From: Aurantiochytrium sp. KH105
Lineage: Eukaryota; Sar; Bigyra; Thraustochytrida; Thraustochytriidae
Length of the DNA stretch: 64,000 nucleotides
Direction of reading: 5' to 3'
Assembly (NCBI GenBank): GCA_003116975.1
Contig: BGKB01000174.1
Coordinates: forward strand, 83,502-147,501
The notes under the pieces were generated by a model. It saw only the letters and a program-made list of their open reading frames with translations, was not told the origin of the DNA and ran no database searches. Position 1 is the first letter of the stretch; each line of letters begins with the position of its first letter. Shown here piece after piece: positions 9,639-60,483 of this stretch. The position numbers were made by a program, and so were the translations under genes.

Positions 9639-11279
9639 CTACTCAACAACATAGTCGTCGTCGTCATCGTCGTCGTCAGCTCTTCTGCCGTCTTCGTTGT
9701 CGTCTTCGTCTTCATCAAGATCGAGATCAATGACTTTCTTCGCGGCACTCCTGCGTCGCTTTGGTTTGGAAGCCGCTTTGTTGCTGCTGCCATCATCATT
9801 CATCTCGTCGTCCTCCTCTTGATCATCGTCTTCGTCATCATCATCATTGTCGTCATCGTCGCTGACTTGAAAAGCTTTGCGCGCAGACTGAGCCGCAGAT
9901 CTCCTGGAAACAGCCCGCCTTGGCGTCGTGATGGTGACCGAGCCTTCTTGAAATTCTGGCTCATCGCTTTCGCTCTCATCGCTCATCCACTTTGCAGCAT
10001 TTGATGAAGACCTTTTGCTCGTTTGCGACGTGTCCTGGGAGCTGCCAACCATGGAGACGTCGCCCTGAGAAGCGAGATCTTCTGTTTCCGTGAGTGGGAC
10101 GGAGGCAAGCGCTCGCGCCTTGTAAGACTCGCCCAGCATAAGCGGATCGGCCCAGTTAATTTCCTCTGCTGGTCCTTGACGCAGGACTTCCATTGTACCA
10201 TTTCCGTCACGCGTGACCCATTCATACGAAGTAAATACCACGACCTCTTCGTATTTGGCATCGAGTGTGACGCCTTGCTTCTCGCGCTCGTCAAAGTTAA
10301 CATGCAGATAGTTGGTGTCCGGGTGAATCAGTGCGCCGAGCAATCGAAGTGTCTTTCCTTCCTCGGCAAACTCAATGTTAAGCACAGGCTTTGTTGATGC
10401 AAAGCCTTCGATCGTTCCGCATGTTCCAATCGATTGCAGCGACATTTGGCCGGGCAGCACGAAGAGGCGATGATGCTTGCGATTCATGCTCTGGCTCACC
10501 TTGAATTCGCGATTATCGCATGCCGCTACAGCTCGCGGCAATGACAAGCCCTGAGTTGGACTCAGGATATCACGTTCCTGGCTCATCATGGAGAGTTTGG
10601 CTGCTTCCTTTACAGCGGCATCCTGTACATTGGCGGCCTCCACATCTTCTCGTGTTTGAAAGGTTTTGACTCCGCCGCTGCCGCCGCCGCGTTTTGCAGT
10701 TGTCTTCTTCGTCTGACTGGAAGTCGCTTTTACTTGCGAGCCACCTGTTAATAAGGTCTTTTGCTTTTTTGCTTTTGCAGAAGAGGCACTCTCGGATCCT
10801 GCCTTCAATTTGCGTTTTTGCGGGGTACCCGTGCCTACAGTTTTCGTCTTCGTCACACCTTTCTTAGCACTCGCTTTCGGAGTTGTAGGCTTCTTTTTTG
10901 CGCTGGGCTTCTTCATTACAATGTCCGAGAGAACATCGTTGTCGGATTCGTCCGCGTCCAGCACAATGGTATTCCTTCGCCGGGGCGTGCCGCCAAAACT
11001 GGAACTGTCGTCGTCGTCATCACTGTCGGACTTTCCGCGTGCGCTGTAGAAATCATCGTCACCCTCCCCGAAATCGTCGTCACTGTCACCGGCACCCCGC
11101 CGGCGGCTCGCGCTAGCCTTTCTGGTCTTCTTGCCCGTGGACTTTGGCTTGGCCCCCTTGGCAACTTGCACCTCGTCGCTGTCCTCGTCCGCCGCATCGC
11201 TGTTCTTGGAGTCCTCGTCGCTCGACAGCTGGTCCTTGTAGCTCACCGGCGCCCCGCGCGCCCGCGCGCTGCGCGGCAT
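9639..11279 (-). CDS. RHL1-like DNA topoisomerase VI accessory protein
   Basis: Predicted 546 aa from the ATG at 11279; three further codons upstream lack an ATG. The N-terminal third is acidic and Lys/Ser-rich with basic patches (KKPSAKKKP). Residues about 268-372 form the recognisable part: LFVLPGQMSLQSIGTCG, then KPVLNIEF, GALIHPDTNYLHVNF and EEVVVFTSYEWV. This matches the core of plant RHL1/HYP7, which binds the Top6A/Top6B complex needed for endoreduplication. The C-terminus is again acidic (Asp/Glu runs encoded by GTC/ATC repeats). The protein is probably nuclear and DNA-associated. Topoisomerase VI subunits elsewhere in the genome would support the role. The assignment is from memory of the family core, not alignment. 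Confidence 0.7.
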   Translation of the reverse strand: MPRSARARGAPVSYKDQLSSDEDSKNSDAADEDSDEVQVAKGAKPKSTGKKTRKASASRRRGAGDSDDDFGEGDDDFYSARGKSDSDDDDDSSSFGGTPRRRNTIVLDADESDNDVLSDIVMKKPSAKKKPTTPKASAKKGVTKTKTVGTGTPQKRKLKAGSESASSAKAKKQKTLLTGGSQVKATSSQTKKTTAKRGGGSGGVKTFQTREDVEAANVQDAAVKEAAKLSMMSQERDILSPTQGLSLPRAVAACDNREFKVSQSMNRKHHRLFVLPGQMSLQSIGTCGTIEGFASTKPVLNIEFAEEGKTLRLLGALIHPDTNYLHVNFDEREKQGVTLDAKYEEVVVFTSYEWVTRDGNGTMEVLRQGPAEEINWADPLMLGESYKARALASVPLTETEDLASQGDVSMVGSSQDTSQTSKRSSSNAAKWMSDESESDEPEFQEGSVTITTPRRAVSRRSAAQSARKAFQVSDDDDNDDDDEDDDQEEDDEMNDDGSSNKAASKPKRRRSAAKKVIDLDLDEDEDDNEDGRRADDDDDDDDYVVE

Positions 11280-11685
11280 CCTCGCCAAGATCGCCCGGCT
11301 GCTCGCGCGAGAGCGGCGAACAGGCGCGGTCGTTAGTCAGGCAAAAAGGGTTTTGCTTTGACGAGTCCTGTCGAGTGGCACCTTTGTTTGTGCTAGTAGC
11401 AAAAGCGAGAGCGCCGACGAGAGCGCGATCTCGCCAGAGCGCCTGGTCGCGAGAGCTCGAGCGAAAGCCCGCGCGAGCACTCCCAGGCGGCCTTCTCTCC
11501 TCTTTGCACAAGGCCGACGAGGAGAACCACACCGTCGGCAAGAACAAGGATCGTGCATTGTTCGTCTTGAGCGCGACAACAGAGACCACCGCGGACAGCG
11601 CTGCCTGACAGTGAGTTCGTTCGCTGCTGGAGGGGAAGAAGGGATACGGCGGACGAAGCCAGGACCGGCGAGCGAAGCATACGAT
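11280..11685. other. Divergent promoter interval (RHL1-like / hydroxylase-GlcNAc-transferase)
   Basis: A 406-base spacer between two divergent starts. The frame of the downstream gene is open to 11611 but only with a GTG, so the first ATG (11686) is preferred. No other gene is seen. Confidence 0.5.
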
Positions 11686-13737
11686 ATGCAAAGCGGGAAC
11701 GTATTGCAAAACGATGCCGTGAGAGCGCGGCTTGCGGCTTTTCTCGGTGCTCCGGTAGGGCAACAAGCTGCAAAGAATGCGGACGTCGCGCCGCCCGCCA
11801 ACAAAGCTGAAGCATCTCTCTCTCCAAAAGCGAAAACGGCGAGCGTGAAGTCCGAGGGAGTCGTAAAAGAATCCATTCTTGACGCACAGGCACTGTTTGC
11901 GCTGTGCAGCAATGATTTTGCCTGGTGCTCAAAGATCCCAGCAATGGATGCGCAAGAGTGCGAGACCTTGTGCACTGCGATTCGAGATCGTGGCCCTGAT
12001 GACTTGCGCGCAGCACAAATGGGGGCCAATGCGGCCTGGCAGGACGCCCTGTATCGAGGCGATCGAATTGCTTGGATCACAGCAGCCTGGGACCGCCGGA
12101 CAATGTTTGATGCCGCAATGCGTGTCTTCAAGCGTTTGCAGAGCCAGCTACGCGAGCGCTTTGCGCTGTCCGACCGCGTCAGTCTTCAGCTTGCCTGTTA
12201 TCCCGCAAATTCCGCGGGCTATGTCAAGCATCGCGATACAGAAAACAAAGAGGAGGGTCATCGCGTCGTGACTGCACTTCTCTATTTGAATCCAGCTTGG
12301 GTTACAACCAAGCATGAGGGCGCGCTACGGATTTATTCCCCATCTGGGGACCAACATTACGATGTGGCACCCGAAGCCAACTGCCTAGTAGTCTTTCAGT
12401 CTCACTTGGAGCATGAAGTGCTCAAGACGCAAAGTCGGCCTCGCTGGGCCATCACCTGCTGGTTTTACAGCAAGACTTTGGATGCTGTTTCTGCATCTGA
12501 GCCCGCCTCCATGACAAGAATGGAAACTCCATCGTCTGCGGAGACGATCTTTGTAGCGATCCCAAGCTTTCGAGATCCTCTGTGTGCCTCGACGGTTCTC
12601 GACCTTTACGAGAAAGCTTTGCGCCCCGAACATGTTCGAGTGGGAATTTGCTGGCAAAACGAGAGCGACGAAACAGAATACTTTGGGAGGACTCCGGAGG
12701 AGCGTGACCTTTTTACACAGCGCATCAAATTGGGCCACGTACGCTCCGTGGCGATTCCAGCGAGCAGTGCAACTGGGCCCTGCACTGCGCGCGCCCTTAT
12801 CCACAAGTCGTTGTACGGCGGGGAGACCTATCTCCTGAATATCGACGCGCACACACGCTTCGTCAAGGGCTGGGACGAGAAGATGATCCGTTTGCTCGAA
12901 GTCGCGGCATCTCGCGCATTGCATCCCTCGCGAGCCATGCTTTCCACGTATCCAGCGGGCTTTGAGCTAGACCGTTCTTCCGGAGAGGAGCGTCTTCCGC
13001 ACAAAGAGCTCACGCTCGTGTCTCTGGGCATCCTCTCGGCCCCCATTCTGCGGCCCAGCCACTTCGACCACGACGACTGGACCCTGCGCATAAAAAGTGA
13101 GCGAGTCTCGCCCTCCTCTTTGACCTCACCTCCAGCATCGTCCCCGTCATCCCCCTCATCCTCACCCTCGCCTCCTTCCCCGCCGTCGCAATCTGGCGGC
13201 GCGGATTCCGAGGTGGTCGCGACGCACCTCTTCGCGGGAGGCTTCAACTTTTCGCGGGCCGAGGTCCTGGTGGACCTGGTCGCGTACGCGGACGCGGAGC
13301 ACCTCTTCTTCGGCGAGGAGAGCGCCATGGCCGCGCGGCTCTTCGCGCGCGGCTGCGACGTCTTCTGCCCAGCCCGCGAGGACCTCGTCTTCCACCTGTG
13401 GGCCGCGGCAGACCGCCAAGAGCGCCTCTTCCGCAGCCCCGCCGCGCCGCGCCTCGAGGCCTCGCGCGCCGTCGCTCGCGCGCTGGCCGCCGGCGCAGCG
13501 CCCGGGGCCGCGGCCGGCGCGGCGCCCGGAGCCGCGCGCGGGCGCGGCCCCGCGGACCTGGGCCGCGCCATCGGCGTCGACTTCGCCGCCAGAACCGTCG
13601 CCGCGGCCGCCGGCGACCGCGACCGCGACCGCGACCGCGACCGCGACCGCGACCGCGACCGCGACCGCGACCGCGACCGCGAGAGCGACCGCGAGAGCGC
13701 GGGCGGCGGCGACGCGGGCGGGGAGGGCGGACGTTGA
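11686..13737 (+). CDS. Fused PHD/PhyA-type prolyl 4-hydroxylase and Skp1-type GlcNAc-transferase (GT60)
   Basis: One uninterrupted frame of 683 aa from the ATG at 11686. The N-terminal half is a PHD2/PhyA-type 2-oxoglutarate/Fe(II) prolyl hydroxylase: ACYPANSAGYVKHRDTENK supplies the HxD iron ligands, HLEHEVL the distal His, and RPRWAITCWFY the 2OG-binding Arg. A short linker leads to a GlcNAc-transferase domain (Pfam GlcNAc/GT60): ETIFVAIPSFRDP, a YLLNIDAHTRF DxH-type metal site, and a C-terminal GRAIGVDFAARTV that matches the closing motif of Dictyostelium Gnt1. In Dictyostelium and Toxoplasma separate enzymes hydroxylate a Skp1 proline and then cap it with GlcNAc. Here both steps appear to sit on one cytoplasmic chain, so Skp1 is the inferred substrate. 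The last 30 residues are an Asp-Arg repeat from a 6-bp microsatellite (about 13612-13683). No signal peptide is visible. Confidence 0.9.
   Translation: MQSGNVLQNDAVRARLAAFLGAPVGQQAAKNADVAPPANKAEASLSPKAKTASVKSEGVVKESILDAQALFALCSNDFAWCSKIPAMDAQECETLCTAIRDRGPDDLRAAQMGANAAWQDALYRGDRIAWITAAWDRRTMFDAAMRVFKRLQSQLRERFALSDRVSLQLACYPANSAGYVKHRDTENKEEGHRVVTALLYLNPAWVTTKHEGALRIYSPSGDQHYDVAPEANCLVVFQSHLEHEVLKTQSRPRWAITCWFYSKTLDAVSASEPASMTRMETPSSAETIFVAIPSFRDPLCASTVLDLYEKALRPEHVRVGICWQNESDETEYFGRTPEERDLFTQRIKLGHVRSVAIPASSATGPCTARALIHKSLYGGETYLLNIDAHTRFVKGWDEKMIRLLEVAASRALHPSRAMLSTYPAGFELDRSSGEERLPHKELTLVSLGILSAPILRPSHFDHDDWTLRIKSERVSPSSLTSPPASSPSSPSSSPSPPSPPSQSGGADSEVVATHLFAGGFNFSRAEVLVDLVAYADAEHLFFGEESAMAARLFARGCDVFCPAREDLVFHLWAAADRQERLFRSPAAPRLEASRAVARALAAGAAPGAAAGAAPGAARGRGPADLGRAIGVDFAARTVAAAAGDRDRDRDRDRDRDRDRDRDRDRESDRESAGGGDAGGEGGR
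13612..13683. repeat. CGCGAC hexanucleotide microsatellite inside coding sequence
   Basis: About 12 units encode the Asp-Arg dipeptide repeat at the C-terminus of the hydroxylase/GlcNAc-transferase. Length polymorphism would change only this tail. Confidence 0.9.
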
Positions 13738-13907: not shown

Positions 13908-14907
13908 ATGGCCTCCTCCGTCTTGGGCGCGACGCTGCGAGCGCTGCTCGGCATGCTCGTGGCCGCCGCCGCCTGGGCGTACAGGACGAGCCGAGGATGT
14001 GCGGCAGCCATGTCGATCGCGTACTGGCGAATGCTTCTCTTCGTGAAGCAAGCCGAGGCCGCCATGATCACAGACGAGGACGTCGCAGATACTGCAAGCG
14101 GGAAAAAGGCCGACGGCAAGCGGGGATCCAAGCTTGTCAAGCTCAAGCTAGCAAAGACCCCTGCACGTGTAGGCCTGTGCTTGGAGCGCAGCACACTCGG
14201 CGAGGGTGATGCAGATACCAGAGCACTCGAAAAACTCGCGCAAAAGTGCGCAAGCGTGATGATGTGGTTCGCGGATGCGGGTGTCCGTGAGCTGGTCGTG
14301 TTCGAGGGGTCGGGTGACATGCAGAAAGCCCTACCACGCATAACTGCACATCTGAGGCACATGCTACACGATCCAAGGGGAATGGGTTATCTCGCGTTCG
14401 GTCAGCTTGCCGCGGTGCGCTCCATGCAAATCTTTGTGGGTGGTAGCGCTTCACCCGTTGAGATCGTCCACAATAGCAGCCACCAAGGTAAAGTCGATGT
14501 AAGCGTACGCTTCTTTTCGGATGACGATGGTGCTCGCGACATGGCACGAGTCGCACAAGACCTCGTCGACGATGCAGAAACTCCTGTGCAAAGCATCGAC
14601 GCTGGACTTTTGGACAAGCGTCTATCCTGTACCAAACACGCCACAGGTCGTCTTGACGTCGTTTTCATCTTTTCGGAACATGCATGTCTTGGCGGCTTCC
14701 CGGCATGGATTGCTCGCACACCCGAAATTCTGTAAGTTTTTTCTCCAAGCCCTTGTCGCATTGTGTGTCTGAATCTGACGTTCTTGAATGTCACTCACAT
14801 TTTTTTTTCTCAGAACGCTCGGCCAGTCGATGCAAAGTGTACTCTACGCGTCAATTGTGCGGAGTCTGTCTCTTTACAGTCGCTCAGAGCAGCGCTGGGG
14901 GCAATAA
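13908..14907 (+). CDS. NUS1: NUS1/NgBR, dehydrodolichyl diphosphate synthase subunit (spliced)
   Basis: Exon 13908-14731 and exon 14814-14907 join in phase 2 across an 82-base intron (GTAAGT...CAG) to give 305 aa. A hydrophobic N-terminal segment (LRALLGMLVAAAAWAY) is a probable ER membrane anchor. The body resembles the catalytically inactive cis-prenyltransferase partner: GLCLERST, VRELVVFEGSGDMQK, GARDMARVAQDLVDD and GGFPAWIARTPEI. The spliced last exon supplies the terminal SEQRWGQ, that is, the RxG motif typical of Nus1/NgBR C-termini, which confirms the splice. With a DHDDS-type partner it would make dolichyl diphosphate for N-glycosylation. The frame is open upstream through the microsatellite, but the ATG in GGCCATGGCC is favoured. 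Confidence 0.9.
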
Positions 14908-15295: not shown

Positions 15296-18200
15296 CTAAA
15301 AATTTTCGAGAATACCAGCCCAGAGGCTTGAGAGTGGAGCAAACTGCTTAGCTTCGTCGTTGCGTTGCACCACAGCTTGTTCCAAGTGCTGCAAGAGCTG
15401 ATCATGATTACGCTCGCTGACAAGCTCAAAGCTCACCTTGCAAGCGTCCGCGTCAAGTGGATAGCTTGGGAGAATCTCAAAGGCAACCTTTACAACAGCC
15501 CCGAGTCCACCGTAGTAGATCTCGACGGAAAACACCATGCTGCCATCGCCCCGCGCGGTGAGCTTGCACGGATAGGTCTCGCTCTGACAGATTTGCGAGA
15601 TCTCCTCCCATAAGTCATGAAGACGACCAAACTCGACATCAAGCTCGAGCAAAGCATCCGGTACACAGGATGGCTCTGCGCCACGCAGCCGCGAGCGCAA
15701 TGCGGCCACCGTGTGCGCGACGCGGGCCTTGGTGATTGTCGCCATTTTTGCCTCGACGTCCAACGAACTGAAGGCCTCTTCGACGCCAACCTGAGGTCGA
15801 TCCTCAGTCTCCAGCGCATCGGGCCCGACGTGCTGCGAATGAATCTCGACGACACTTGGCTGAAGATCAAAAATGAATGTAATGAGCTCGTACGAGCCAT
15901 CGACATTGTCAAGCGCCAGTTCAACTGAAGTGCCGCTTGCATTATGAAGTCTCCAGATATGAAGACCTTGCGCGACATCAAGAACAGCATTTTGGCTCTC
16001 AAAGTCGACTTCAGCTTGTCGCTGTGCTTCGAGCGCCTCTAAATTGTCTTGTGCCTCCTTCAGACGAGCAGCTTGGACGTCATGGGCGCTTTGTACACGT
16101 GTGAAATCCTTGTCGGCAATGCGGACGCGTTCTTCCAACTCAGCAATCTCTTGCCTGTACCCTCCAATCACTTCCCGCTGCTCCAAGAGGGCCTCGAGGA
16201 GCGAGTGCAGGCGCTCTGCGCTACTCACGGCTTCGCTTGCCTGCGCTCCAGCGGCTTCGAGGCGTTGCACACCCTCTTGAACAATACCAATGTCTTCACG
16301 CAAGATAGACCCATGTTCTTCGAGGGCTTGCAATGAGAGGCTCAGCCCCTTGGCCTCAATATCACTCCATGACGCGCGCGCCTCGCAAAGAGCTTGCTCG
16401 CGCAGAGTGCGAATTGCTTTTTTGAGTCCAAGATTCACACGGCCACTCTCTGCATCGACTTGAAGCAATGAGGGTGAAGACTGCTCGAGTGTTGTCACGA
16501 GCTCAGTGATGGTCTGCTGCGCCAAGAGGGCACGGTTTCGCGACTCGTTCACGGTCCATTTCTGGCCGAACATATCCGCTTGCAAAACGCATGCGCGAGT
16601 CAACTCTTCATCGACAACTTCTTGCGCTTCGACCTCGGGGTCATCTACGAGATCCTGCGAAGGATCCTCGGCATCTCCAAGATCTTGGTGCAGAGATTCG
16701 TTTGAGAGCGGCGCCTCGCACTGCGCGAGAAAGGCCTCGAGTGACAGACTCGTCGTGGAGGGTTTTGGCGTTGGCGGGGGGGAAAGGTCCTCTTCTTGAA
16801 CATCTGGTGACGTGCCTGCGGCATCTCGGGTCCCTTGTTCAGCAGAGAGAGGCGTCCGCGCCAGTGCGCGTCGAGGTCGAAAGGCGCTTTCAGAGGCGTT
16901 AGTGTTGTTTGCGGGCTCGGGCGTTTCAGGGGTCATGTCTATTCCTTTGGCAGGTTCAGGTCCTGCAGATTGTTTGGCCTCGTTTGCTGGCGATGACGAG
17001 GGCGAAGGCGAGAATGGCGCCGCCGCGGCAGCAATAGAAGCCGAGTCTGTCGCTTCAGCAGGCGACAGGCTCGTTTTTCTCGCACTCACGAGGGCAGGAG
17101 ACTTGTTCGATGTCACTTCACGACCACGAGGAGAAGATGACGTCGATCCTGGCGAGTTCATGAAGCCATCGAGGACAGCCGCTGAATCGAATTGAAGACC
17201 TTGTTTGCCATCCCGTTCGCTCTTCTTATCGGAACCCTGAGATGAAGATCCGAGCGAAGAAAAGCTAAGGCGCATGTGAGGCGATGATGCGGTGGGAGAC
17301 GCCTGGGACTCTTCGGCCATTTCCTTAGTCTCTGCGGGCGTTCCGGGTGTTGCTGGTGTTGCGGGCGAGAGCTCGGCAAGCTCCGTGAGGCTTCCGAGCT
17401 CCTTTGTTTTTTCTTCTGAAGCAGTTGGCCCTGAAACACGACGCTGGTTTGGCCGCGGCTCCGACTCGGGCGTCATCGCAGCCAGCTCTGAGAGATTGCC
17501 AAGATCAACGGTGCGGTCCTGTGGCGTTGCAGCACTTCCTTTTCGTGCCGATTCATGTTTTGTACCCGAGGATGCTACTGCTAAGCGTGCCGAGATGCGT
17601 CGTGTTCGCCGGATCGCGACGCTTTCGTTCTCGGGAGTCATTGCAGCCAGATCCGAGAGATTGCCAAGTTCAACAGTACGCTCTTCGGCTCCTTCGGCTG
17701 CCGGTGGTGGTGGCAAGGAAGATTGTTTCAGCGCCGACGGAGGGCCGGCACTTTCCGGTGACATGCTCGCAAGCTGGGAAAGAGTGCCAAGCTCCACGGT
17801 ATGTTCTTCCTTTGACGGTGAGCTCGAAGGCGATTTAGGCCGGTGTTCATCAGCATCTTCCATCTCCACATCGCTATCAACACGGCTGTCATTGGTGCTC
17901 TGATCCAATGCGGCAAGTTCTGACAGCTGGCCCAGCTCAACCGTCCTCGCAGCTTCCTCGTCGTGATCGTTATCGTTGTGGTCCTCGTCATCACTATCCG
18001 CTTGGTGATGGGATTTTAGAGCCTGCCTTTGCTGCCGGGCTTCACTTGCGCGGCGACGCTGTTGAGAGCGAGTGTTTCGCGCAGGTGACGCTGCAGCAAC
18101 GACGGGAGACAGTGCTGCAAGCGCAGTGAGGTCGTCGAGATCAATCGTGCGGTTGCCAGAGGATGTACCTGTCGACGTGGCCGAGGCTGCGCTTGCGTTG

Positions 18201-20401
18201 CTCGTTCGCCGCGCGGCCCTGGATGATCTCCGGCTACCCCCACTGCTGTGAGCGTCGAGAACACTGTCAAAGTCGTCGAGGTCCACGGTGCGATTAGCTG
18301 CATTTCCCTCTGACCCAGGCGTCGAAGCTGCGAGCGCGTAGAGCTCTTGAAAGTCGATTGTATCCCCATTCGAGTTTGCTAGCGATGAATCCGGCGAGGA
18401 ACTTGCGGGCGCCACTGCTCCTGAACTCTGTGCAGGCGTGCGTGGTCGCATCGCCACGGCGTCTCCCTTGCGCAAAACATCCTCGGCCGTTTCAGGCGAT
18501 GGAGGCGGTGAACGATGGTTTTCGGCCGCCACAGCGTCGAATTTCTGCTCAAGCTCTGACTTGTCATCCTCGCTCCGCACCGAGGGGGACGGCACCTCCT
18601 CGCTGGTCTTACGCGAACCCGCACGAAAAACGCCCATGCTCGAGCGTCTGCTTCCCCTGCTTGAGCGGCTGCGTCGGCTCCCCGCGCTCTGGATGCCTTG
18701 CTCGGCGCTGTTTCGCGATCCCTCAATCTCGTCGTTGTCATCATCCATGGCTTCATCATCTTCTTCTTCCTCCTCCTCCCAGGTGGCGAGAATCGAAGAA
18801 TTCAGAGCAGTCTCACGATCTTCCTCAATAAGATCCTCGTCATCCGAGTCCACACGGTCCTCCATCTTATAGCGCGTCCTTGCATAATTCTTGTTGAGAG
18901 GTGTGACGCCGCCACGTACAGGGTCTTGATAGTCGAATTCTGCAGCATCCGGAGAACCAAAGACGACGGACTTCTTCTTTTGTCTGGCCGATGTACCGCG
19001 CTTTTTCCGCGCGCTGATGCAACTCTTAAGAGGCGTCGGCCCTGGGCCAAGCTCGGCAATGTTTCCGGGGGTCCGAGCTTGGGACTCGGGCCGGGGCGGC
19101 TTCTTGGCCGACGAACGTGTGCGAAGCGCGACGGGCGTGACGTCATCATTTTCCTGTGCACGAGCACTCGATTTCGAGTCTTCTGGTGTGCTTACCTGGA
19201 AAAGTTTGTCATCGTCCTTGGCCAAGAGCTCTGCTTCGCGTCTGCCGCGTGCAGTGGCGGCATTGAGCTGCTCCTCTTCGTCATCATCCTCGTCTTCGCT
19301 GTCGGCCATTTCAAGCAGACGCTGGAGTGCGGAAGGTGAGGCTGTATTTCGCCTGTTTCCATTACGTGCAGGCGTGTCGTCATTGTCAGAGTCGTCGAAT
19401 GGCGTTGATTTCACCTTTTTGGGCTTGGCGGGTGTTCCATTCCTCGTTCGGACATCCTTTTGTCCCTTGCCGGCGTGTTCATTTCCTCTGCCTCCGGCGT
19501 CTTCATCTTCATCTTCGTCATCGTCGTCTGCGCCGGCGAGAATGTTTTGAAATGCGGCGAGAGTGACCGTCCGGTTTGCTTCATCGTCGTCAAGGTGGCC
19601 ATTCTCGCTGTCATCATCTTCGTCACTATTAAGAAGATCTTCCAGGTCTGCGGTGCCAGCAGAAGCGGCGCTCTTCCTTTCGCTGTGCACTGGGCGCAGA
19701 GCGTTTCGCCGCGTGTTCAGCTCGACTTCCGGGAGGGATGGCGTCGAAGCGGCAGAAATGCTGACAAAGTGATCCTCGGTGCTCGTGTCCATATCGTCAC
19801 TGTCACCATCATCATCATCATCGTTCTCGTTGTCGTCTTCCTCGACTCTTTGGGTTTCGCGGTCTGCGTTATCATTCATGCCGTGCTGCTGAATCTCTGC
19901 CTCCTCTTCATCATCGCCAGATTCGTCTGAAGAGTCTGAGAACCGGAGTGCAGGACCCGAGCCCTGCGAGTCAGGGGAGAACTCAATGAGCTCGCCTTTG
20001 GCCCTTTTCTTTTGGTCATTGGCCTTCTTTTCAAGAGGAGTTTTCGCAATGTTCAGATCCGAGCGTTGGTCGTCTTGGTTGCCAAGGTTCGCCTTGCCAA
20101 GATCGTTCTCGAGTGAGGTGCGTGCCTTCTTCCGCGCGGGACTTTTGCGACGCGGGCTGGGTGTTGGCGCGCCTCGCATAGTCCCGACCCCTGGCTGCTG
20201 CTGCTGCTGCTGCTGCGGCGGCGGCGGCGGCTTTTGCATGTGCTGGTTCTCCTGCTGCTGCTTTTGCGGATCGCCGCCAAGATCGAGCTCCTGAAAGGGC
20301 TTGCGTCTCTGCTGCTGCTGCTGCTGCTGCGTCGTCACCGGGTCCTTCTCCTCTGCTTGCTGCTGCTGCGGCGCCGGCGGTTGCTCCCTGGCAACCTCCA
20401 T
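15296..20401 (-). CDS. Putative KNL1/Spc7-type kinetochore scaffold with MELT-like repeats
   Basis: Single frame of 1,701 aa from the ATG at 20401. The N-terminus is poly-Q/Pro and then long, acidic and disordered. A KKSVVF segment near residue 475 fits the RVxF consensus for PP1 docking. At least nine diverged repeats follow the pattern T-[VIK]-[DE]-[LF]-x2-L-x2-LA-x-[ML]-[TS]-P, concentrated in residues about 680-1005. After residue about 1300 comes a long coiled coil (with a GSILRE motif), then a beta-rich C-terminal domain (IWRLHNASGTSVEL, MVFSVEIYYGG, ILPSYPLD) resembling the RWD fold of KNL1/Spc7. This order (PP1 motif, repeat array, coiled coil, RWD) is that of KNL1, which recruits Bub proteins and the Mis12 complex. 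Sequence identity is low, so this is an architecture-based call. Confidence 0.65.
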   Translation of the reverse strand: MEVAREQPPAPQQQQAEEKDPVTTQQQQQQQRRKPFQELDLGGDPQKQQQENQHMQKPPPPPQQQQQQQPGVGTMRGAPTPSPRRKSPARKKARTSLENDLGKANLGNQDDQRSDLNIAKTPLEKKANDQKKRAKGELIEFSPDSQGSGPALRFSDSSDESGDDEEEAEIQQHGMNDNADRETQRVEEDDNENDDDDDGDSDDMDTSTEDHFVSISAASTPSLPEVELNTRRNALRPVHSERKSAASAGTADLEDLLNSDEDDDSENGHLDDDEANRTVTLAAFQNILAGADDDDEDEDEDAGGRGNEHAGKGQKDVRTRNGTPAKPKKVKSTPFDDSDNDDTPARNGNRRNTASPSALQRLLEMADSEDEDDDEEEQLNAATARGRREAELLAKDDDKLFQVSTPEDSKSSARAQENDDVTPVALRTRSSAKKPPRPESQARTPGNIAELGPGPTPLKSCISARKKRGTSARQKKKSVVFGSPDAAEFDYQDPVRGGVTPLNKNYARTRYKMEDRVDSDDEDLIEEDRETALNSSILATWEEEEEEDDEAMDDDNDEIEGSRNSAEQGIQSAGSRRSRSSRGSRRSSMGVFRAGSRKTSEEVPSPSVRSEDDKSELEQKFDAVAAENHRSPPPSPETAEDVLRKGDAVAMRPRTPAQSSGAVAPASSSPDSSLANSNGDTIDFQELYALAASTPGSEGNAANRTVDLDDFDSVLDAHSSGGSRRSSRAARRTSNASAASATSTGTSSGNRTIDLDDLTALAALSPVVAAASPARNTRSQQRRRASEARQQRQALKSHHQADSDDEDHNDNDHDEEAARTVELGQLSELAALDQSTNDSRVDSDVEMEDADEHRPKSPSSSPSKEEHTVELGTLSQLASMSPESAGPPSALKQSSLPPPPAAEGAEERTVELGNLSDLAAMTPENESVAIRRTRRISARLAVASSGTKHESARKGSAATPQDRTVDLGNLSELAAMTPESEPRPNQRRVSGPTASEEKTKELGSLTELAELSPATPATPGTPAETKEMAEESQASPTASSPHMRLSFSSLGSSSQGSDKKSERDGKQGLQFDSAAVLDGFMNSPGSTSSSPRGREVTSNKSPALVSARKTSLSPAEATDSASIAAAAAPFSPSPSSSPANEAKQSAGPEPAKGIDMTPETPEPANNTNASESAFRPRRALARTPLSAEQGTRDAAGTSPDVQEEDLSPPPTPKPSTTSLSLEAFLAQCEAPLSNESLHQDLGDAEDPSQDLVDDPEVEAQEVVDEELTRACVLQADMFGQKWTVNESRNRALLAQQTITELVTTLEQSSPSLLQVDAESGRVNLGLKKAIRTLREQALCEARASWSDIEAKGLSLSLQALEEHGSILREDIGIVQEGVQRLEAAGAQASEAVSSAERLHSLLEALLEQREVIGGYRQEIAELEERVRIADKDFTRVQSAHDVQAARLKEAQDNLEALEAQRQAEVDFESQNAVLDVAQGLHIWRLHNASGTSVELALDNVDGSYELITFIFDLQPSVVEIHSQHVGPDALETEDRPQVGVEEAFSSLDVEAKMATITKARVAHTVAALRSRLRGAEPSCVPDALLELDVEFGRLHDLWEEISQICQSETYPCKLTARGDGSMVFSVEIYYGGLGAVVKVAFEILPSYPLDADACKVSFELVSERNHDQLLQHLEQAVVQRNDEAKQFAPLSSLWAGILENF
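17380..18362 (-). repeat. Protein-level repeat array, MELT-like
   Basis: Eight repeats are encoded at about 17386, 17480, 17640, 17757, 17910, 18100, 18250 and 18325 (read on the minus strand). A further copy (TVTLAAFQNILAGA) lies at about 19530-19575. The best-conserved ones read TVDLGNLSELAAMTPE and TVELGNLSDLAAMTPE. The conserved Thr and the Thr/Ser-Pro are candidate phosphosites. Confidence 0.8.
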
Positions 20402-53161: not shown

Positions 53162-55840
53162 ATGGAGACCGCGGCCGGGCACGCGAGAGACTTTGGGTTC
53201 GCGGCGCTGCCGGAGGGCCTCCTGGGCCTCGCGGCGCGACTCGAGGAACTCGGCGGGTCCCAGGACAGCGCTGCTCGCGTGGCGCCCTTGGAAATCTATG
53301 TCCGCGTGCGCGGGACGCATGCCACAACAGCGGCGCAAATAAAGGCGGGCGGCGGCCAAGGCGCGGCGAGGGCGAGCACGCGGGGCATGGAGCAATTGCG
53401 GAAATCGGAAAGGCTCCTCGACGATCTTGCGCGGAGGGGCGATGTCGATGTCGACGTGCTCCGTCTCGCTGCAGCCCGTGGCGCCCAAGATGGCGAGCAT
53501 GAGAGAGCGCATGTTTGGGTCGAAGGCGGTCGCGACGTGGTTCTTCGGCAACCTGACTCGCGCAAGCTGCAGAAATTCCGATGCAGTGCCGGTTTTTCAC
53601 GACTTGCGAGCGACACGGATGTCAGTCAACCGCTTGCCGAGAACATTGTCAACGCATGGCTGCTCAAGGGCTTCAACACGACCGTCTTTAGCTGGGGCAA
53701 GTCCGGCGCAGGCAAGACACACACCTTGCTGGGGTCCAGATCGCTTCGTGAGCCCTTGATGATGCCAGACGCCCCCCTGCCCGACTCAAGTGCACGGGAC
53801 TCGGTGCTATGGCAGTCACTCAAGCTCATTTTTGCAAATGTCGGGCTTGATCGCGACAACGCAACTTCAGTTAGTCTTTCGTGCTGGGAAATATCAGCTC
53901 AAGGCAAGATCGTTGATCTCTTGGCGTCGCATGCTCAGGATCCTTTGCGTTCGCGCAAGGACGATTTTGTGGGCGTCTCATGTCGGAACCTAGGCGAAGC
54001 GTCTCAAGTTTTGGAGGCCGCACGGTGTTCGAGCCAAAATTGGACAGAGAGATCGCACGATCGCCATGACACGCTGAAAGCTTTGCGGAATAGGTCTCAT
54101 GCTTTTGTTCGCGTGGCCATCGCACAGCACGATTCGAAAACACTTTCGGTGGGCCATTTTGTAGATTTGGCAGGCCATTCACGACCCAAACCCAAAAGTC
54201 AGGAAGGTCAGCGCCGTCATGCTCAGCTCAATCGACATTTGCTTGGGTGCGAACGTCTACTCAGCGAGCTTTCCCACCTCGAGATATTACGTGCAAGCTC
54301 AGGAAATCTCAGCGCGGCGCGGGACTCGCCGCTCACTCGTACGCTTGCCCGTCTCCTCGCCACAAACAGCAAATGCTTTTGTCTGGCAACACTGACAGAT
54401 TCCTTGGATGACTACAAGGCCAATGTGGCCACAATGCGTGTGGCCACGTGTGCCAGCCTTGTCAACTCTGCGTGCATGCGGGAAAGCGGAGACTCGAATG
54501 CGCTGTTTCCGATACGATTTGTTCCATTCGCCGAGGTCGCGACCCGTGTCGGAGCAGAAGCTACCGGCCCCGGCGATGATCCCTTGTCACGCGCGCGGGA
54601 GCAAGTAGCGACAAAAAATTCTGCCGCAAGACATGAAGATGGTGACATCGGGAGAGAAAAAGACAGCGATCATGCAAACGTACACGACGAAACAGATGAA
54701 GACACTGCCACCTCCGGGCCCGGGGATCTGGAGTTTGAAGACCATGATCCTCGAGACGATAGGGGGACGGGCCGCGTTGGGGAGGCACTTCGGGAGCTGG
54801 CACTGGAGAAGAAATCCTCAACTCCAACTCGAATGCGCCAGGCTGTCCTTGAAAACCTGCACCACGCCGCGAACGTAGCAAAAGCATACCATGAGGACCA
54901 TCTTGAAGTCACGCTTGTCGACTTGATGACAAACGAGGAGCAAGCCGAGGCAAGGCAACTGCAAGAGGAAATTGAGGCCATCGAAGCGGAACAGGCCCGC
55001 ATGACAAGGAAAAAGCTTGCGGAAAAGCAGCAGATCGAGCGCGAAAATGCGCAGCTACGTGCATGGGCGCGCGACATGCGCGAGAAGTCGCGTGTTGGCT
55101 CAATCATGGGGCTCTTCGAAGATGACCTCGAATGGGCACGACAAAGCTTGTCACGTGTCGAGGCCGCACGAGAACGCACCGACCCCGTTTTGCTCGAGTC
55201 CGAGCGTGGGGCTGTTGTCGTCAATGTAGCCCGAGATTTTGCGCGTTCGCTAAAGTCCGAAATCCGAGGCTTGGACCAAGCTCTCGAGCCATTGCGCAGG
55301 CGCGTGCCGCAATTCGACTCGAGACAACGCTTCATGGACAGTTTGCGTAAGCAGGAGAAACAGCTCGATGAGCGCATGCGCGAGATTGAGAACGAACTGA
55401 ACACACGTCGCGAACGTAAGAATGATCTCGAGTCTGGAGTCAGAGATGCGGAGGCGGAGCGAGCTGCTCTTTCTGCGATGCGAGATGAGCTCGAGGCCTC
55501 GCGCGTCAGGCAGTCAGATGAAACCATTGCCATACGGAAATTTCTTTCGCGCATTGCGAATGAAGACGAGAGGCGCGCTGTGCTGCAAAGGCTTGATACG
55601 CGCCAGCAAGATCCGCAGGCGTATCCGTATGGAACGGGAATCTCTCGCGGGGTACAGGTTCTCTTGCGCCGGCTCGATGGGCTGGTAAGCCGGCAAGCAG
55701 CCTTTATGGCACCGCATCAAGCTTCGTTGCGCACAGCATTGGAGAAGATGGGCACGCAATTGCTCTTGGTTGAGAATCGTGAGTCGAAGCTCCTGGAGGC
55801 AATGGAAGATATGATTGATGAGGAAAATCAGCCGCACTAG
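53162..55840 (+). CDS. Divergent kinesin-like protein
   Basis: 892 aa from the ATG at 53162. The motor region (about 45-440) is recognisable but altered. The P-loop is GKSGAGKTHT (near residue 180) instead of GQTGxGKT. Switch I is NRSHAFVRV instead of NxxSSRSH. Switch II is VDLAGHS instead of DLAGSE. A TRTLARLLATNSKCFCLATL segment matches the alpha4-alpha5 region, and LATLTDSLDDYKANVATMRVA the end of the motor. After an acidic linker, residues about 580-890 are coiled coil. The Walker Lys/Thr remain, so nucleotide binding is plausible, but the lost switch residues make normal ATPase cycling doubtful. The subfamily cannot be assigned by eye. Confidence 0.82.
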   Translation: METAAGHARDFGFAALPEGLLGLAARLEELGGSQDSAARVAPLEIYVRVRGTHATTAAQIKAGGGQGAARASTRGMEQLRKSERLLDDLARRGDVDVDVLRLAAARGAQDGEHERAHVWVEGGRDVVLRQPDSRKLQKFRCSAGFSRLASDTDVSQPLAENIVNAWLLKGFNTTVFSWGKSGAGKTHTLLGSRSLREPLMMPDAPLPDSSARDSVLWQSLKLIFANVGLDRDNATSVSLSCWEISAQGKIVDLLASHAQDPLRSRKDDFVGVSCRNLGEASQVLEAARCSSQNWTERSHDRHDTLKALRNRSHAFVRVAIAQHDSKTLSVGHFVDLAGHSRPKPKSQEGQRRHAQLNRHLLGCERLLSELSHLEILRASSGNLSAARDSPLTRTLARLLATNSKCFCLATLTDSLDDYKANVATMRVATCASLVNSACMRESGDSNALFPIRFVPFAEVATRVGAEATGPGDDPLSRAREQVATKNSAARHEDGDIGREKDSDHANVHDETDEDTATSGPGDLEFEDHDPRDDRGTGRVGEALRELALEKKSSTPTRMRQAVLENLHHAANVAKAYHEDHLEVTLVDLMTNEEQAEARQLQEEIEAIEAEQARMTRKKLAEKQQIERENAQLRAWARDMREKSRVGSIMGLFEDDLEWARQSLSRVEAARERTDPVLLESERGAVVVNVARDFARSLKSEIRGLDQALEPLRRRVPQFDSRQRFMDSLRKQEKQLDERMREIENELNTRRERKNDLESGVRDAEAERAALSAMRDELEASRVRQSDETIAIRKFLSRIANEDERRAVLQRLDTRQQDPQAYPYGTGISRGVQVLLRRLDGLVSRQAAFMAPHQASLRTALEKMGTQLLLVENRESKLLEAMEDMIDEENQPH

Positions 55841-56264: not shown

Positions 56265-59093
56265 TCAATTTTCGGACTCCGCCAAGACTGTTTCTGTTTC
56301 ACGGAAACGCTCCTCGATGACCTTGATAAAGTCGTCGATACCTTCGGTGGCGCGCGACACAGCGTCCGCCGAGGACGATGTCGCGGGACTGCGGCTTTGC
56401 GAGGCACTGGATCGCGCATGCGAAGCAGTCCCACGTGCTCCAGACCTGCCAGAACCCGACGCTGAAGAAAGTACCCTCGGTGCAGAGATCGGCCCATTCG
56501 AGGTCGATCCGCGTGCAGCTGAGGCAGTGTGATTCAAGGTTGCATGACGCGTACCTCTCGCTTCTCGCGAGGTGACAGAATGACCCAATTCTGACTCGAG
56601 GGACTCCACCGTGGTGGCAGCAGAAGGCTCGGACATGAGTCTGTGATGCTGAGGCACGGCCGAAAGAGACTGCGACGACGCGCTCGCAATAGAGGAAGCA
56701 CCATTTGACGATGAGTCTTCAACTTGCTGCCGCACGCGTGAGTCGATCTCGGAGATGCGCCGGTCCATGGTCTGCAGGGCCGTGTTGATGCGCTTTTCCA
56801 TGGCGTCGAAACGCTCTGGAATGTGCGCCACGCTTTCAAAGGCCATTGCAATCTTATTCATTTGCGTCACGAGCATGCTCAGGTCAGGTTGTCCTGCTTG
56901 CGTCGACATGGCGGCAGCCATTTGGTCTTGCTTGGGCTCACTTTGCTGTGGAGCGTGCGCTTGGCTGTGCTGGTGCAGCTGGTCTTGCTCGTGATTCGGC
57001 TCGGGTATCGGCGTGCGTGCTGATTGCACAGCGACGGATGCGGGCGCGGCGTCCACGGCGCGAGGAAAACCAGCAGGTCGACCACTTTGCTGGGAGCTGG
57101 GCGTTGAAATTTGTGACGAGGCCGCCCCGTTAGCACTCGTCCCGGAAGGGAGTTTTAATTTGCGCGCAATGTTGCCGCCCCCAGAGCGATCCTTGGCCGG
57201 AGAGAAAGAGCGACCGGAGCGCGAACCGGCGGCCAGAGTGGCGCCAAGCTGATGAGGGCTTGCGGAGCCTTGGCTCGAGGCAGCGCGGCCGCGAGTTCCG
57301 AAGGCAGCCGACATCGGTGCTACCTTGGTGGCAGATACAGGACTGCTTTGTCCGGACTTGGGGCGCGCCATCATCGCCGCAGCCGCCGCGACACTGCCGC
57401 CGCGCTTTGATCCCGCTGAAAGGCTGCCTACGCTGTTGGTGCGGTGCATGCTTGAAGGCGAGGATCCCCGACTGCCGTGGTGGATGCGCGGCGAGGTATG
57501 CGGCTTGTTGAGTTGGGCCGCGAGGGCTTCCTTGCGTTTTGGGCGGTCCAAAAGCTGGGGCGGTGAGCTCACCCAACACTCCAGACCACGCGCAGCGTTG
57601 TTCACGTTCAAATAAGGTGGGTTCCCAGCATGAGGATGATCCCCCAACGCATCGCCGTCTCCGGTCGCGGACGACGAGCCCTGGCTACTTGCATGTGTTT
57701 GCAAATGATGCTGGAACTGATGCGTGTGTGGGTGCAGATGGCCCCGCATGTCAGCTTTGACCCGTATGGGTGCCTGGCGAAAGACGGCAGGCGCAGAAGC
57801 AGCCGATGTGATGGACACTGGGGACACTGGACCAGAGCTGGAGGTAGGACTCTTGAGTTCTTCTGGGCCGTTTCCATTTGCGGGCGTGGTGCCGTTGCTA
57901 CTACCGTCCCCTCCGGTTTGCAGCGTGAGCGTCCGTTTCGAGCGCCACGAGCCCCCGCTCGTGGCCTCTTTGGCGCCATTGCTTGAAGATATTTGTCCTG
58001 GTGTGAGCGCAGCATGCGCTTGCGCCGTATGGGATGAAAAAAATGGCGCGTGCGATGAGGCCGCCGCGCCGGGGTGCGGATGGGGTTGCGAATGAACATG
58101 ATGGTGATGGTTGGCAACTTGATGTTGCTGTTGTTGTTGTTGTTGTTGTTGATGATGATGATGATGATGATGATGCTGTAAAGCAGTAGTATGGGGCGTC
58201 CGCCCTACGCCGTTGCTGCTCCCGTTCTTGGAAGGTTCATGCGCTGCATCAGATCGATGATACGCGCCAGTGTGATTGGCTTCAGCCATGCCGTTTTGTT
58301 GTTGCCTGCGTGTTGCTCGCGCTTCGCCCGAGGACCGCACTGCTGTTTTGCGCGTTGGCTTTGCAATGATGGGCACGGCACGGCGTTGACGAAGGGATCG
58401 CCCCACGGCATCTGCTGGTACAGAACCTAAGGAGGAAGCAAAATCGGCGTCTTCCTCGATCTCAACCTCTCCCTCATCGTCATCATCCCTGCTTCGAATG
58501 GCCTTGACGAGAGGCCTATGATCAGCCTCGTCAAGCCGATCGTTACGAAGGCCGCCTCGGTCCACGCCATTGGCCGTGGCGGAGGAGGAAGAGGACTTGG
58601 CACTGCCATTGACGTTGGCATTGATACTTGCTGCAGCAGGCGAGGAGGTCTCACTCGAAGCACTGGGAGGGGTTCGTGAATTACCCGCTGCCTTTTGCAA
58701 ACGTACGAGCTCATCGGCTTTGCGACGACAGAGCTTGACCACGTCGCAAACAAAAATGATTTTCCGCTCCGCAAAACCCGAGGAGAGGAACTGCTCCAGC
58801 GTGAGTGAAGGCCGGTAACTGAATTCATTGCGCACGACGCGAAAGACTCCCTCCAAAAAGGGTCGATCCTGGATAGGATACAGCTGGTAACCCCTCTCGG
58901 AAAGGTACCTTGCTAAGTGGAGCGAGTCGTCGAGAAGAACCTTGTGCAGCAGAGGGAGAAAGCCCGTGGGCTCGCCTCGGGCAACAGCCTCGAGGTCAAC
59001 GTCTTCGTCCTTGACACAAGTACCACGCAGCTCCGAGCGTAGCTTTTCCAGGTTGTTCCGAAGGTCGCCCGTCATGGCCGCAGCGTGTGCCAT
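56265..59093 (-). CDS. CEP44: CEP44-domain centriolar protein
   Basis: 942 aa from the ATG at 59093 (MAHAAAMTGDL); a second ATG six codons on is equally plausible. Residues about 8-135 match the CEP44 N-terminal domain: TGDLRNNLEKLRSEL, GEPTGFLPLLHKVL, RPFLEGVFRVVRNEFSYRPSLTLEQFL and GFAERKIIFVCDVVKL. Human CEP44 binds centriolar microtubules and helps convert centrioles to centrosomes, so a centriole or basal-body role fits a zoosporic protist. The rest is low in complexity, with His and Gln runs (a GAT/GTT microsatellite at about 58124-58178), Ser-rich segments and a short coiled coil (AFESVAHIPERFDAMEKRI) near residue 750. It is far longer than animal CEP44 (about 390 aa). Confidence 0.88.
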   Translation of the reverse strand: MAHAAAMTGDLRNNLEKLRSELRGTCVKDEDVDLEAVARGEPTGFLPLLHKVLLDDSLHLARYLSERGYQLYPIQDRPFLEGVFRVVRNEFSYRPSLTLEQFLSSGFAERKIIFVCDVVKLCRRKADELVRLQKAAGNSRTPPSASSETSSPAAASINANVNGSAKSSSSSATANGVDRGGLRNDRLDEADHRPLVKAIRSRDDDDEGEVEIEEDADFASSLGSVPADAVGRSLRQRRAVPIIAKPTRKTAVRSSGEARATRRQQQNGMAEANHTGAYHRSDAAHEPSKNGSSNGVGRTPHTTALQHHHHHHHHQQQQQQQQQHQVANHHHHVHSQPHPHPGAAASSHAPFFSSHTAQAHAALTPGQISSSNGAKEATSGGSWRSKRTLTLQTGGDGSSNGTTPANGNGPEELKSPTSSSGPVSPVSITSAASAPAVFRQAPIRVKADMRGHLHPHTHQFQHHLQTHASSQGSSSATGDGDALGDHPHAGNPPYLNVNNAARGLECWVSSPPQLLDRPKRKEALAAQLNKPHTSPRIHHGSRGSSPSSMHRTNSVGSLSAGSKRGGSVAAAAAMMARPKSGQSSPVSATKVAPMSAAFGTRGRAASSQGSASPHQLGATLAAGSRSGRSFSPAKDRSGGGNIARKLKLPSGTSANGAASSQISTPSSQQSGRPAGFPRAVDAAPASVAVQSARTPIPEPNHEQDQLHQHSQAHAPQQSEPKQDQMAAAMSTQAGQPDLSMLVTQMNKIAMAFESVAHIPERFDAMEKRINTALQTMDRRISEIDSRVRQQVEDSSSNGASSIASASSQSLSAVPQHHRLMSEPSAATTVESLESELGHSVTSREARGTRHATLNHTASAARGSTSNGPISAPRVLSSASGSGRSGARGTASHARSSASQSRSPATSSSADAVSRATEGIDDFIKVIEERFRETETVLAESEN

Positions 59094-59173
59094 CTTCCTT
59101 CGTTGGCGCTCTCGGCCGAGATCTCGGGGTCCGCAACGGCGCCGACGTTGCGACGGGGTGCTTGCGTGCTTGC

Positions 59174-59219
<46 letters not shown>

Positions 59220-60483
59220 TGCTGTAACGAACGAACGCGGCCTCTTTTCCTTCTCGCCGCAGCCTTCTCCCTCGCGCGCGACCGCGAGCCACGCGGAGCG
59301 CGGAGCAGCGGAGCAGCGCAGCGCAGCGCGACGGGGCGCCACGCGGAGCAGCGCGACGCGGGCGGGAGGCGGGCGAGCCGGGGTCGCGCGGTTGGGCGCG
59401 AGCCCTGCCCGCCGGCGTCGGCGCCGCGCGAGCCCGGCGCGGCCCGGGCCGGCGCCGCGCGTCCGCAGGGCGCCGCGGCGCTCTCGCGGGGGTGCCGCCT
59501 GACGCCGCCGGCGCGCCGCCCAGCAGGCGGCGCAGGCGCTCCGCGCGCCGCTCGCACGCGGGCGTCGCGTCGCCTCGCGCGGGCTCTCGGGTCGGGTCTG
59601 CGCGGCGCGGCGCGGGCGCCGGGCCTCCGCGGCGGCGCGCACTTGCGGGGCGCCGCGCGCAAGTGGGCTATCGCCCGCCGCAAGTCGGGTATAGCCCCGC
59701 CGCAAGTCGGGCTCTGCGCGGNCGGGCGCCGGGCCTCCGCGGCGGCGCGCACTTGCGGGGCGCCGCGCGCAAGTGGGCTATCGCCCGCCGCAAGTCGGGT
59801 ATAGCCCCGCCGCAAGTCGGGCTCTGCGCGGGGCGCGCCCCTGGCCCGTCCGTCCCGCAACGACGCGGGGATCGCTCGCGAGGCGCGCCGCGGGATGCAC
59901 TGAGAATGGCCGTCGGGGAAGATCGAGGTCTGAGCCTGGGCCTGGCAGCGGGCAGGCTTGTGGAGAGCGGCGATGAGCAAGTCGAGATGCACGGCCGTCG
60001 GATCCGTGTTGACTTTTTGGGGGGGTGGGTTGTGTCGCTTTGGAAATCGGAGGACGTTTGACTTGGCGCATGACGACTGAAGCTTGTAGGACTGTAGAAT
60101 CCCAAAGACCTGACGTCATTGGTGTGAAAAAAAGCTCAATCAAGACCAGGCTCAAGACCAAGAGTCATGGAAAGAGATGGAAACACGGTCGCAGACGCAA
60201 CAACTTGTGTTTTGTCATGAGAGAACCCGACTGCGGCTGCTTTTTACAGGTTTGCACCTGCTGATGATTAGCTTTCGCGTGAGGAAAGTAATTTTTTATG
60301 AAAAATAGGACAAAATTCCAAGCCAAGCAGGCAGGCCAGTTCTTTGCAGAGATACAGAAAGAAGAAGTGGCAATCAGGAAAAGGAGAAGACTTGAAAAGT
60401 TGTTTTCTGAGATAGGTTTCCGTGACGTCGTAGGAACGGTGGAGTAAAAAAAATGCGTGAAATGCAATGGCCGGCTCATTTGA
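59094..60483. other. Interval upstream of CEP44 and downstream of the aminotransferase
   Basis: 1.4 kb containing a GCGT tetranucleotide array (about 59161-59218), extreme GC content to about 59850, the 109-bp duplication with an N, and a more balanced 600 bases near the aminotransferase 3' end. No gene is supported. Confidence 0.5.
59613..59831. repeat. Exact 109-bp direct duplication flanking a single N
   Basis: 59613-59721 and 59723-59831 are identical, separated only by the undetermined base 59722. Each copy carries three CAAGTSGGSTAT-type motifs at about 22-base spacing, the same motif as the cluster at 38954-39120. The layout suggests two contig ends with the same overlap joined by a one-base gap. 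Confidence 0.9.

Follow-up and report, generated by a model that had tools for sequence, protein, structure and literature searches.

Overall structure of the fused gene

The window, a stretch of 64,000 nucleotides from the genome of Aurantiochytrium sp. KH105 (contig BGKB01000174.1), carries on its plus strand a single open frame of 683 residues that ends with TGA and has no internal stop in its translation (Table 1). Pfam assigns 2OG-FeII_Oxy_3 to residues 167–261 (E 2.6e-20) and the GlcNAc family PF11397, which is GT60 according to the literature, to two stretches, the best of which comprises residues 349–577 (E 1.8e-41 for the whole protein). These matches and the translation confirm the preliminary description of this DNA, which had seen one frame with a 2-oxoglutarate (2OG) dioxygenase followed by a GT60 domain. 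The Ser/Pro-rich stretch within the GT60 domain has partly no counterpart in five paralogues of the same genome. In a second copy of the fused gene (described below), this stretch is 12 codons longer; the frame stays open across it without an intron in both copies.

Table 1. Positions in the window of the fused gene, its predicted domains and its sequence motifs
Feature	Position	Strand	Evidence or remark
Fusion frame, predicted prolyl hydroxylase–GT60 GlcNAc-transferase	11686..13737	+	683 aa; second copy intact
N-terminal stretch, ~76 residues, no recognised domain or evident membrane segment	11686..11913	+	
PHD-type 2OG/Fe(II) dioxygenase domain, residues ~77–264	11914..12477	+	Pfam, structure matches
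HxD iron ligands H182 and D184 (YVKHRD)	12229..12237	+	Alignment to PHD2
Distal iron ligand H243 (HLEHEV)	12412..12414	+	Alignment to PHD2
2-Oxoglutarate-binding R253 (RPRWAIT)	12442..12444	+	Alignment to PHD2
Short interdomain linker, residues ~265–284	12478..12537	+	In frame in both copies
GT60 (PF11397) GlcNAc-transferase domain, residues ~285–640	12538..13605	+	Pfam, paralogue alignment
D387-A-H389, DxH motif	12844..12852	+	D-[AS]-H in 5/5 paralogue groups aligned
Ser/Pro-rich low-complexity stretch within GT domain, residues ~471–509	13096..13212	+	
GEE motif, residues 543–545	13312..13320	+	Invariant in seven aligned GT60 sequences
Closing GVDFAART motif, residues 630–637	13573..13596	+	Paralogue alignment
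Asp-Arg repeat, C-terminal tail	13615..13680	+	Other copy shorter

The features that define both families are present, namely an HxD...H triad with the 2OG arginine in a PHD-related domain, and a PF11397 domain with D-x-H and GEE motifs. The HxD...H...R set proposed earlier aligns with PHD2 as H182, D184, H243, and R253. The DxH motif of the GT60 domain is, by analogy with GT27, presumably metal-binding. The closing GVDFAART motif, also proposed earlier, has counterparts in the five paralogue groups, which read GVDF in one group and GVDV in another and are weaker in the remaining three, so that it is a real, if loose, feature of the GT60 family.

The fused protein has no evident transmembrane segment. 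The best 19-residue hydropathy is 0.91 in the first 130 residues and 1.18 anywhere in the protein, and the second copy reaches 0.78 in its first 130 residues. On the basis of these values, the protein is predicted to be cytoplasmic and to lack a signal anchor.

Second copy of the fusion and sequence constraint

A search of the whole genome (76 Mb in 367 contigs) with the fused protein gave 16 matches at E ≤ 0.001, of which only the gene in the window and a second one on contig C74 are full length. The C74 copy has the same two-domain frame and is intact to its stop. The two copies are 92% identical over 663 aligned codons, with a dS of 0.103, a dN of 0.039, and a dN/dS of 0.37. Merging of two adjoining genes by an assembly error or by read-through could in principle produce such a frame as an artefact. 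However, the two copies have diverged and lie on different contigs, yet both domains and the linker are read in the same frame in each, and the combination of the two activities has a published precedent (discussed below). The fusion is therefore not an accident of assembly, and an artefact or a pair of separate genes, which we rejected as the main reading, is extremely improbable. Since the frame is open and conserved, we infer that a single mRNA encodes both domains.

Other genes of the putative pathway, which are described below, also occur in pairs, with dS values of 0.093 (Skp1a), 0.096 (Skp1b), 0.092 (PgtA candidate), and 0.089 (Gat1 candidate). The value for the fusion matches these, so its two copies are one case of a pairing seen across the genome, and the paired copies may represent either two diverged haplotypes or homeologues.

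The first 80 residues are 85% identical between the copies and have a dN/dS of 0.62. The hydroxylase half (residues 81–268) has a dN/dS of 0.40, a figure based on 19 differences (8 synonymous and 11 non-synonymous). In the GT half, dN/dS is 0.27 for residues 285–645, with 0.13 for residues 285–490 and 0.51 for residues 521–645. The weaker constraint on the hydroxylase half and on residues 521–645, together with the low-complexity insert in the GT domain, would fit a protein in which only one half is active and the other serves as a scaffold or is decaying. We consider this distinctly unlikely, given that the two copies agree in the iron and 2OG ligands and in the GT60 motifs.

Relationship of the hydroxylase half to other prolyl hydroxylases

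Among solved structures, human PHD2/EGLN1 is the closest to the first half of the protein (E 1e-14, or 1.8e-15 for the isolated domain). The whole protein matches Pseudomonas PPHD (4IW3) with an E value of 3.1e-14 and Dictyostelium PhyA (6T8M, hereafter DdPhyA) with 3.3e-8; the identities of these two structures are given in PMC7864055. In bit scores, the fused hydroxylase reaches 57 with PHD2, 56 with PPHD, 53 with Trichoplax PHD, and 36 with DdPhyA. With the isolated domain, the order is unchanged (60, 58, and 42 for PHD2, PPHD, and DdPhyA, respectively). These pairwise scores, in which DdPhyA was the sole Skp1-type PhyA compared and which do not amount to a tree, do not set Skp1-type PhyA apart as the nearest of the PHDs.

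The genome contains 33 matches to PF13640, and other hydroxylases could therefore act on Skp1. A standalone PHD-like protein (L006, paired with L007; contigs C146 and C42) scores up to 106 bits with PHD2, 114 with Trichoplax PHD, 53 with DdPhyA, and 48 with PPHD. Because this protein outscores the fused domain against both PHD2 and PhyA, the assignment of Skp1 hydroxylation to the fused domain is provisional. The earlier designation of the fused domain as PhyA-type accordingly stands as far as a PHD-type dioxygenase is concerned, whereas the sequence does not single out PhyA (36 bits against 57 for PHD2, and 53 for the standalone protein). The label draws its support less from the sequence than from the fusion and its context.

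The ends of the catalytic cores also differ. In the fused protein, the core stops about 11 residues past the 2OG arginine and is followed by the short linker, whereas the standalone protein continues beyond its core into a long charged stretch. According to PMC7864055, DdPhyA ends at strand VIII, where animal PHDs have a C-terminal helix, and Toxoplasma PhyA is 10–11 residues longer than DdPhyA. The short end of the fused core resembles that of DdPhyA, but the resemblance is suggestive only and the point is weak, as the Toxoplasma enzyme also continues. As a separate observation, the standalone pair is closer to animal PHDs than the fused domain is, and its substrate would be worth knowing.

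The GT60 half and its paralogues

A comparison of the GT half with solved structures gave no convincing match (best E 0.7). PF11397 has 22 matches in the genome. Besides the fused pair, they comprise another five pairs and some fragments, which lie on contigs C14 and C241. In four of the five paralogue pairs, the N terminus has a strongly hydrophobic segment (1.72–2.62). The frame of the remaining pair (L038/L039), as read, shows no clear membrane segment (1.24). The absence of an evident anchor is therefore not unique to the fused protein among the GT60 frames.

The fragments are degraded GT60 copies (L047, G000:C241:59255-62416; L003, G000:C14:1-2328). An open frame that adjoins the one on C241 presumably resembles a packaging ATPase of large DNA viruses, a hint that the neighbourhood may be viral or mobile.

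Skp1 isoforms

Five matches to the Skp1 family were found in the genome, on two contigs. Skp1a (L009 and L010) carries both Skp1 domains in Pfam, and its two copies encode an identical protein with 9 synonymous differences. In the alignment to human Skp1, it reads NDFTPEEEARVREENKWCEE across the acceptor region and has the acceptor proline in NDFTPEEEARVR, where the human protein has Glu. According to PMC7864055, human Glu-147 corresponds to Pro-143 of Dictyostelium Skp1 and Pro-154 of Toxoplasma Skp1. Skp1b (L012 and L013) has Ala at the acceptor site (VNLTAEQEALV). The acceptor proline, on which the earlier proposal of a Skp1 pathway depended, is thus present in Skp1a and missing from Skp1b.

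A third Skp1 gene (L011, G000:C8:487734-490877) occurs on contig C8 only and reads NELTPEGEARV in this region, with NELTPEGE where Skp1a has NDFTPEEE. Its N-terminal half is Skp1b-like and its C-terminal approximately 100 residues are nearly identical to those of Skp1a; to judge from these similarities, it resembles a chimera of the two isoforms.

Having both a modifiable and a non-modifiable Skp1 in one genome would provide a natural internal control for the function of the Skp1 glycan. The SCF ligases could fall into two pools, in one of which Skp1a would be hydroxylated and capped by the fused enzyme in one binding event given enough O2, while Skp1b would be exempt and the corresponding ligases blind to O2. 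We regard this division as conceivable but doubtful. If it were true, the fusion would make hydroxylated but uncapped Skp1 rare.

Candidates for the later enzymes of the pathway

Later-acting transferases of the Skp1 pathway were also sought. A GT8 protein (L014) is a candidate for Gat1, with 178 bits to 6MW5, the UDP-galactose:glucoside-Skp1 alpha-galactosyltransferase of Pythium, compared with 96 bits to the best glycogenin. The candidate for PgtA (L078/L079) has 728 residues, with a GT2 domain at residues 375–565 behind a stretch of about 370 residues, and its dN/dS is 0.25. In Toxoplasma PgtA, the domain order is GT74-GT2, as stated in PMC6939170. Pfam detects no GT74 domain in L078/L079, and the assignment to PgtA is therefore one by layout, that is, by the position of GT2 and the length. 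Hence, of the later-acting transferases that the preliminary description suggested looking for, a Gat1-type enzyme was found and a PgtA-like protein was recognised by its layout. GT32, the family of Glt1, has 26 matches in the genome; both of the two that were read carry a hydrophobic segment (2.02 and 2.73).

An N-terminal docking motif common to the fused protein (RLAAFLGAP) and the PgtA candidate (LIASFVGPA) was considered and rejected, as its local score of 31 was equalled or exceeded in 745 of 5000 shuffles.

With a Skp1a that has the acceptor proline, a candidate Gat1, a PgtA-like protein, and a fusion that lacks an evident membrane anchor, the genome agrees with the earlier link to a cytoplasmic Skp1 pathway, and this context supports the Skp1 reading of the fused gene well. 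Alternatively, the fusion might act on a different cytoplasmic protein and modify a hydroxyproline there, with the standalone PHD-like pair and some other GT60 enzyme serving Skp1. The higher scores of the standalone protein against both PHD2 and DdPhyA would be compatible with such a division of labour, as would the existence of one GT60 paralogue pair without an obvious membrane segment. However, the title of the paper on the published dual enzyme, which has these two activities, names Skp1 as the substrate, Skp1a has the acceptor, and candidates for the later pathway enzymes are present; moreover, the standalone protein runs past its core while the fused core stops early like DdPhyA, although this last point is suggestive only. 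We therefore consider another substrate unlikely.

Proposed reaction scheme

The fused protein is very probably a cytoplasmic dual-function enzyme for the modification of Skp1, as judged from its sequence and genome context; its activities, its substrate, and a dependence on O2 in the cell are part of this prediction. With O2, 2-oxoglutarate, and Fe(II), the N-terminal PHD-type dioxygenase would hydroxylate Skp1 at its acceptor proline, and the C-terminal GT60 domain would transfer GlcNAc from UDP-GlcNAc to the resulting hydroxyproline. The glycan would then be extended by the PgtA-like protein (GT74-GT2 layout) and by Gat1, with a putative Glt1 step by a GT32 enzyme between them. The glycan may tune how Skp1 binds F-box proteins, an effect reported for Dictyostelium and Toxoplasma.

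Most simply, the benefit of the fusion would be that Skp1 is bound once and is then hydroxylated and capped. Hand-over between the two domains is likewise a prediction, as the channelling put forward in the preliminary description is beyond what a sequence shows; a review treats processive action as a possibility only. DdPhyA has a high Km for O2 and Toxoplasma PhyA a low one, according to PMC7864055. Because O2 sensing depends on this constant, it is not readable from sequence.

Comparison with known Skp1-modifying systems

The preliminary description presented PhyA and Gnt1 as separate enzymes, which is correct for Dictyostelium and Toxoplasma but leaves out a dual enzyme published for Pythium ultimum. 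A 2019 study by van der Wel, Gas-Pascual and West (Glycobiology 29:705) is reportedly, going by its title, about a dual-function Skp1 prolyl 4-hydroxylase/GlcNAc-transferase of Pythium ultimum, and the same title is said to state that Skp1 isoforms are differentially modified. PMC9485057 cites this study for the crop parasite Pythium ultimum, and PMC7864055 lists the species among those in which a PHD-type oxygenase hydroxylates Skp1. A review describes fusions of successive Skp1 enzymes as frequent. The combination is therefore known, and the fusion described here is a further member and opens no new class of system.

As compared by title alone, the Pythium enzyme resembles the present one in having the same two activities in one polypeptide. 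Its title refers to differential modification of Skp1 isoforms, and in the present genome one isoform has the acceptor proline and another lacks it. Possible local features, relative to the Pythium enzyme, are the second gene copy, the Ser/Pro-rich insert, and the Asp-Arg tail. The present genome thus extends the dual-function Skp1 enzyme to another organism, in which further pathway members and a Skp1 that lacks the acceptor accompany it.

In Dictyostelium and Toxoplasma, as here, a PHD-type hydroxylase is followed by a GT60 enzyme and the acceptor place in Skp1 matches (PMC7864055, PMC11570480, and PMC6939170). The difference is that PhyA and Gnt1 are encoded by separate genes in those organisms, in contrast to the one gene found here. 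PgtA, described in PMC6939170 as a GT74-GT2 Skp1 galactosyl/fucosyltransferase, likewise joins two successive Skp1 enzymes, but it catalyses later steps of the pathway with unrelated domains.

A single-protein query with patterns from the whole fused protein, which reaches close relatives only, gave no match in a collection of viral contigs. Patterns from the GT half matched four stretches of viral contigs, none of which encodes a relative, and the same was true of all 15 stretches matched in contigs of prokaryote genomes; these viral and prokaryote searches are silent on the distribution among eukaryotes. Skp1 was absent among the matches listed for the literature on three thraustochytrid genera, a result from which we do not conclude that relatives of this organism have no reported fusion.

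Neighbouring genes in the window

Directly downstream of the fused gene, the frame at 13908–14735 (+) matches the dehydrodolichyl diphosphate synthase subunit NUS1 (6JCN, E 2.1e-6). Its product would also be related to glycosylation, and the adjacency is probably due to chance. Further downstream, an acidic protein of 1701 residues (15296–20401, −) with no Pfam match contains several repeats of the type RTVELGNLSELA, which we take to be reminiscent of the MELT repeats in the kinetochore scaffold KNL1/Spc105. On the other side, an acidic frame of 549 residues (9639–11288, −) is divergent to the fused gene and also has no Pfam match; its central stretch presumably resembles plant RHL1. A gene for a CEP44-domain protein (56268–59705, −; E 7.9e-35) adjoins a kinesin gene (53162–55837, +; E 1.4e-29), an arrangement that suggests an organism with centrioles.
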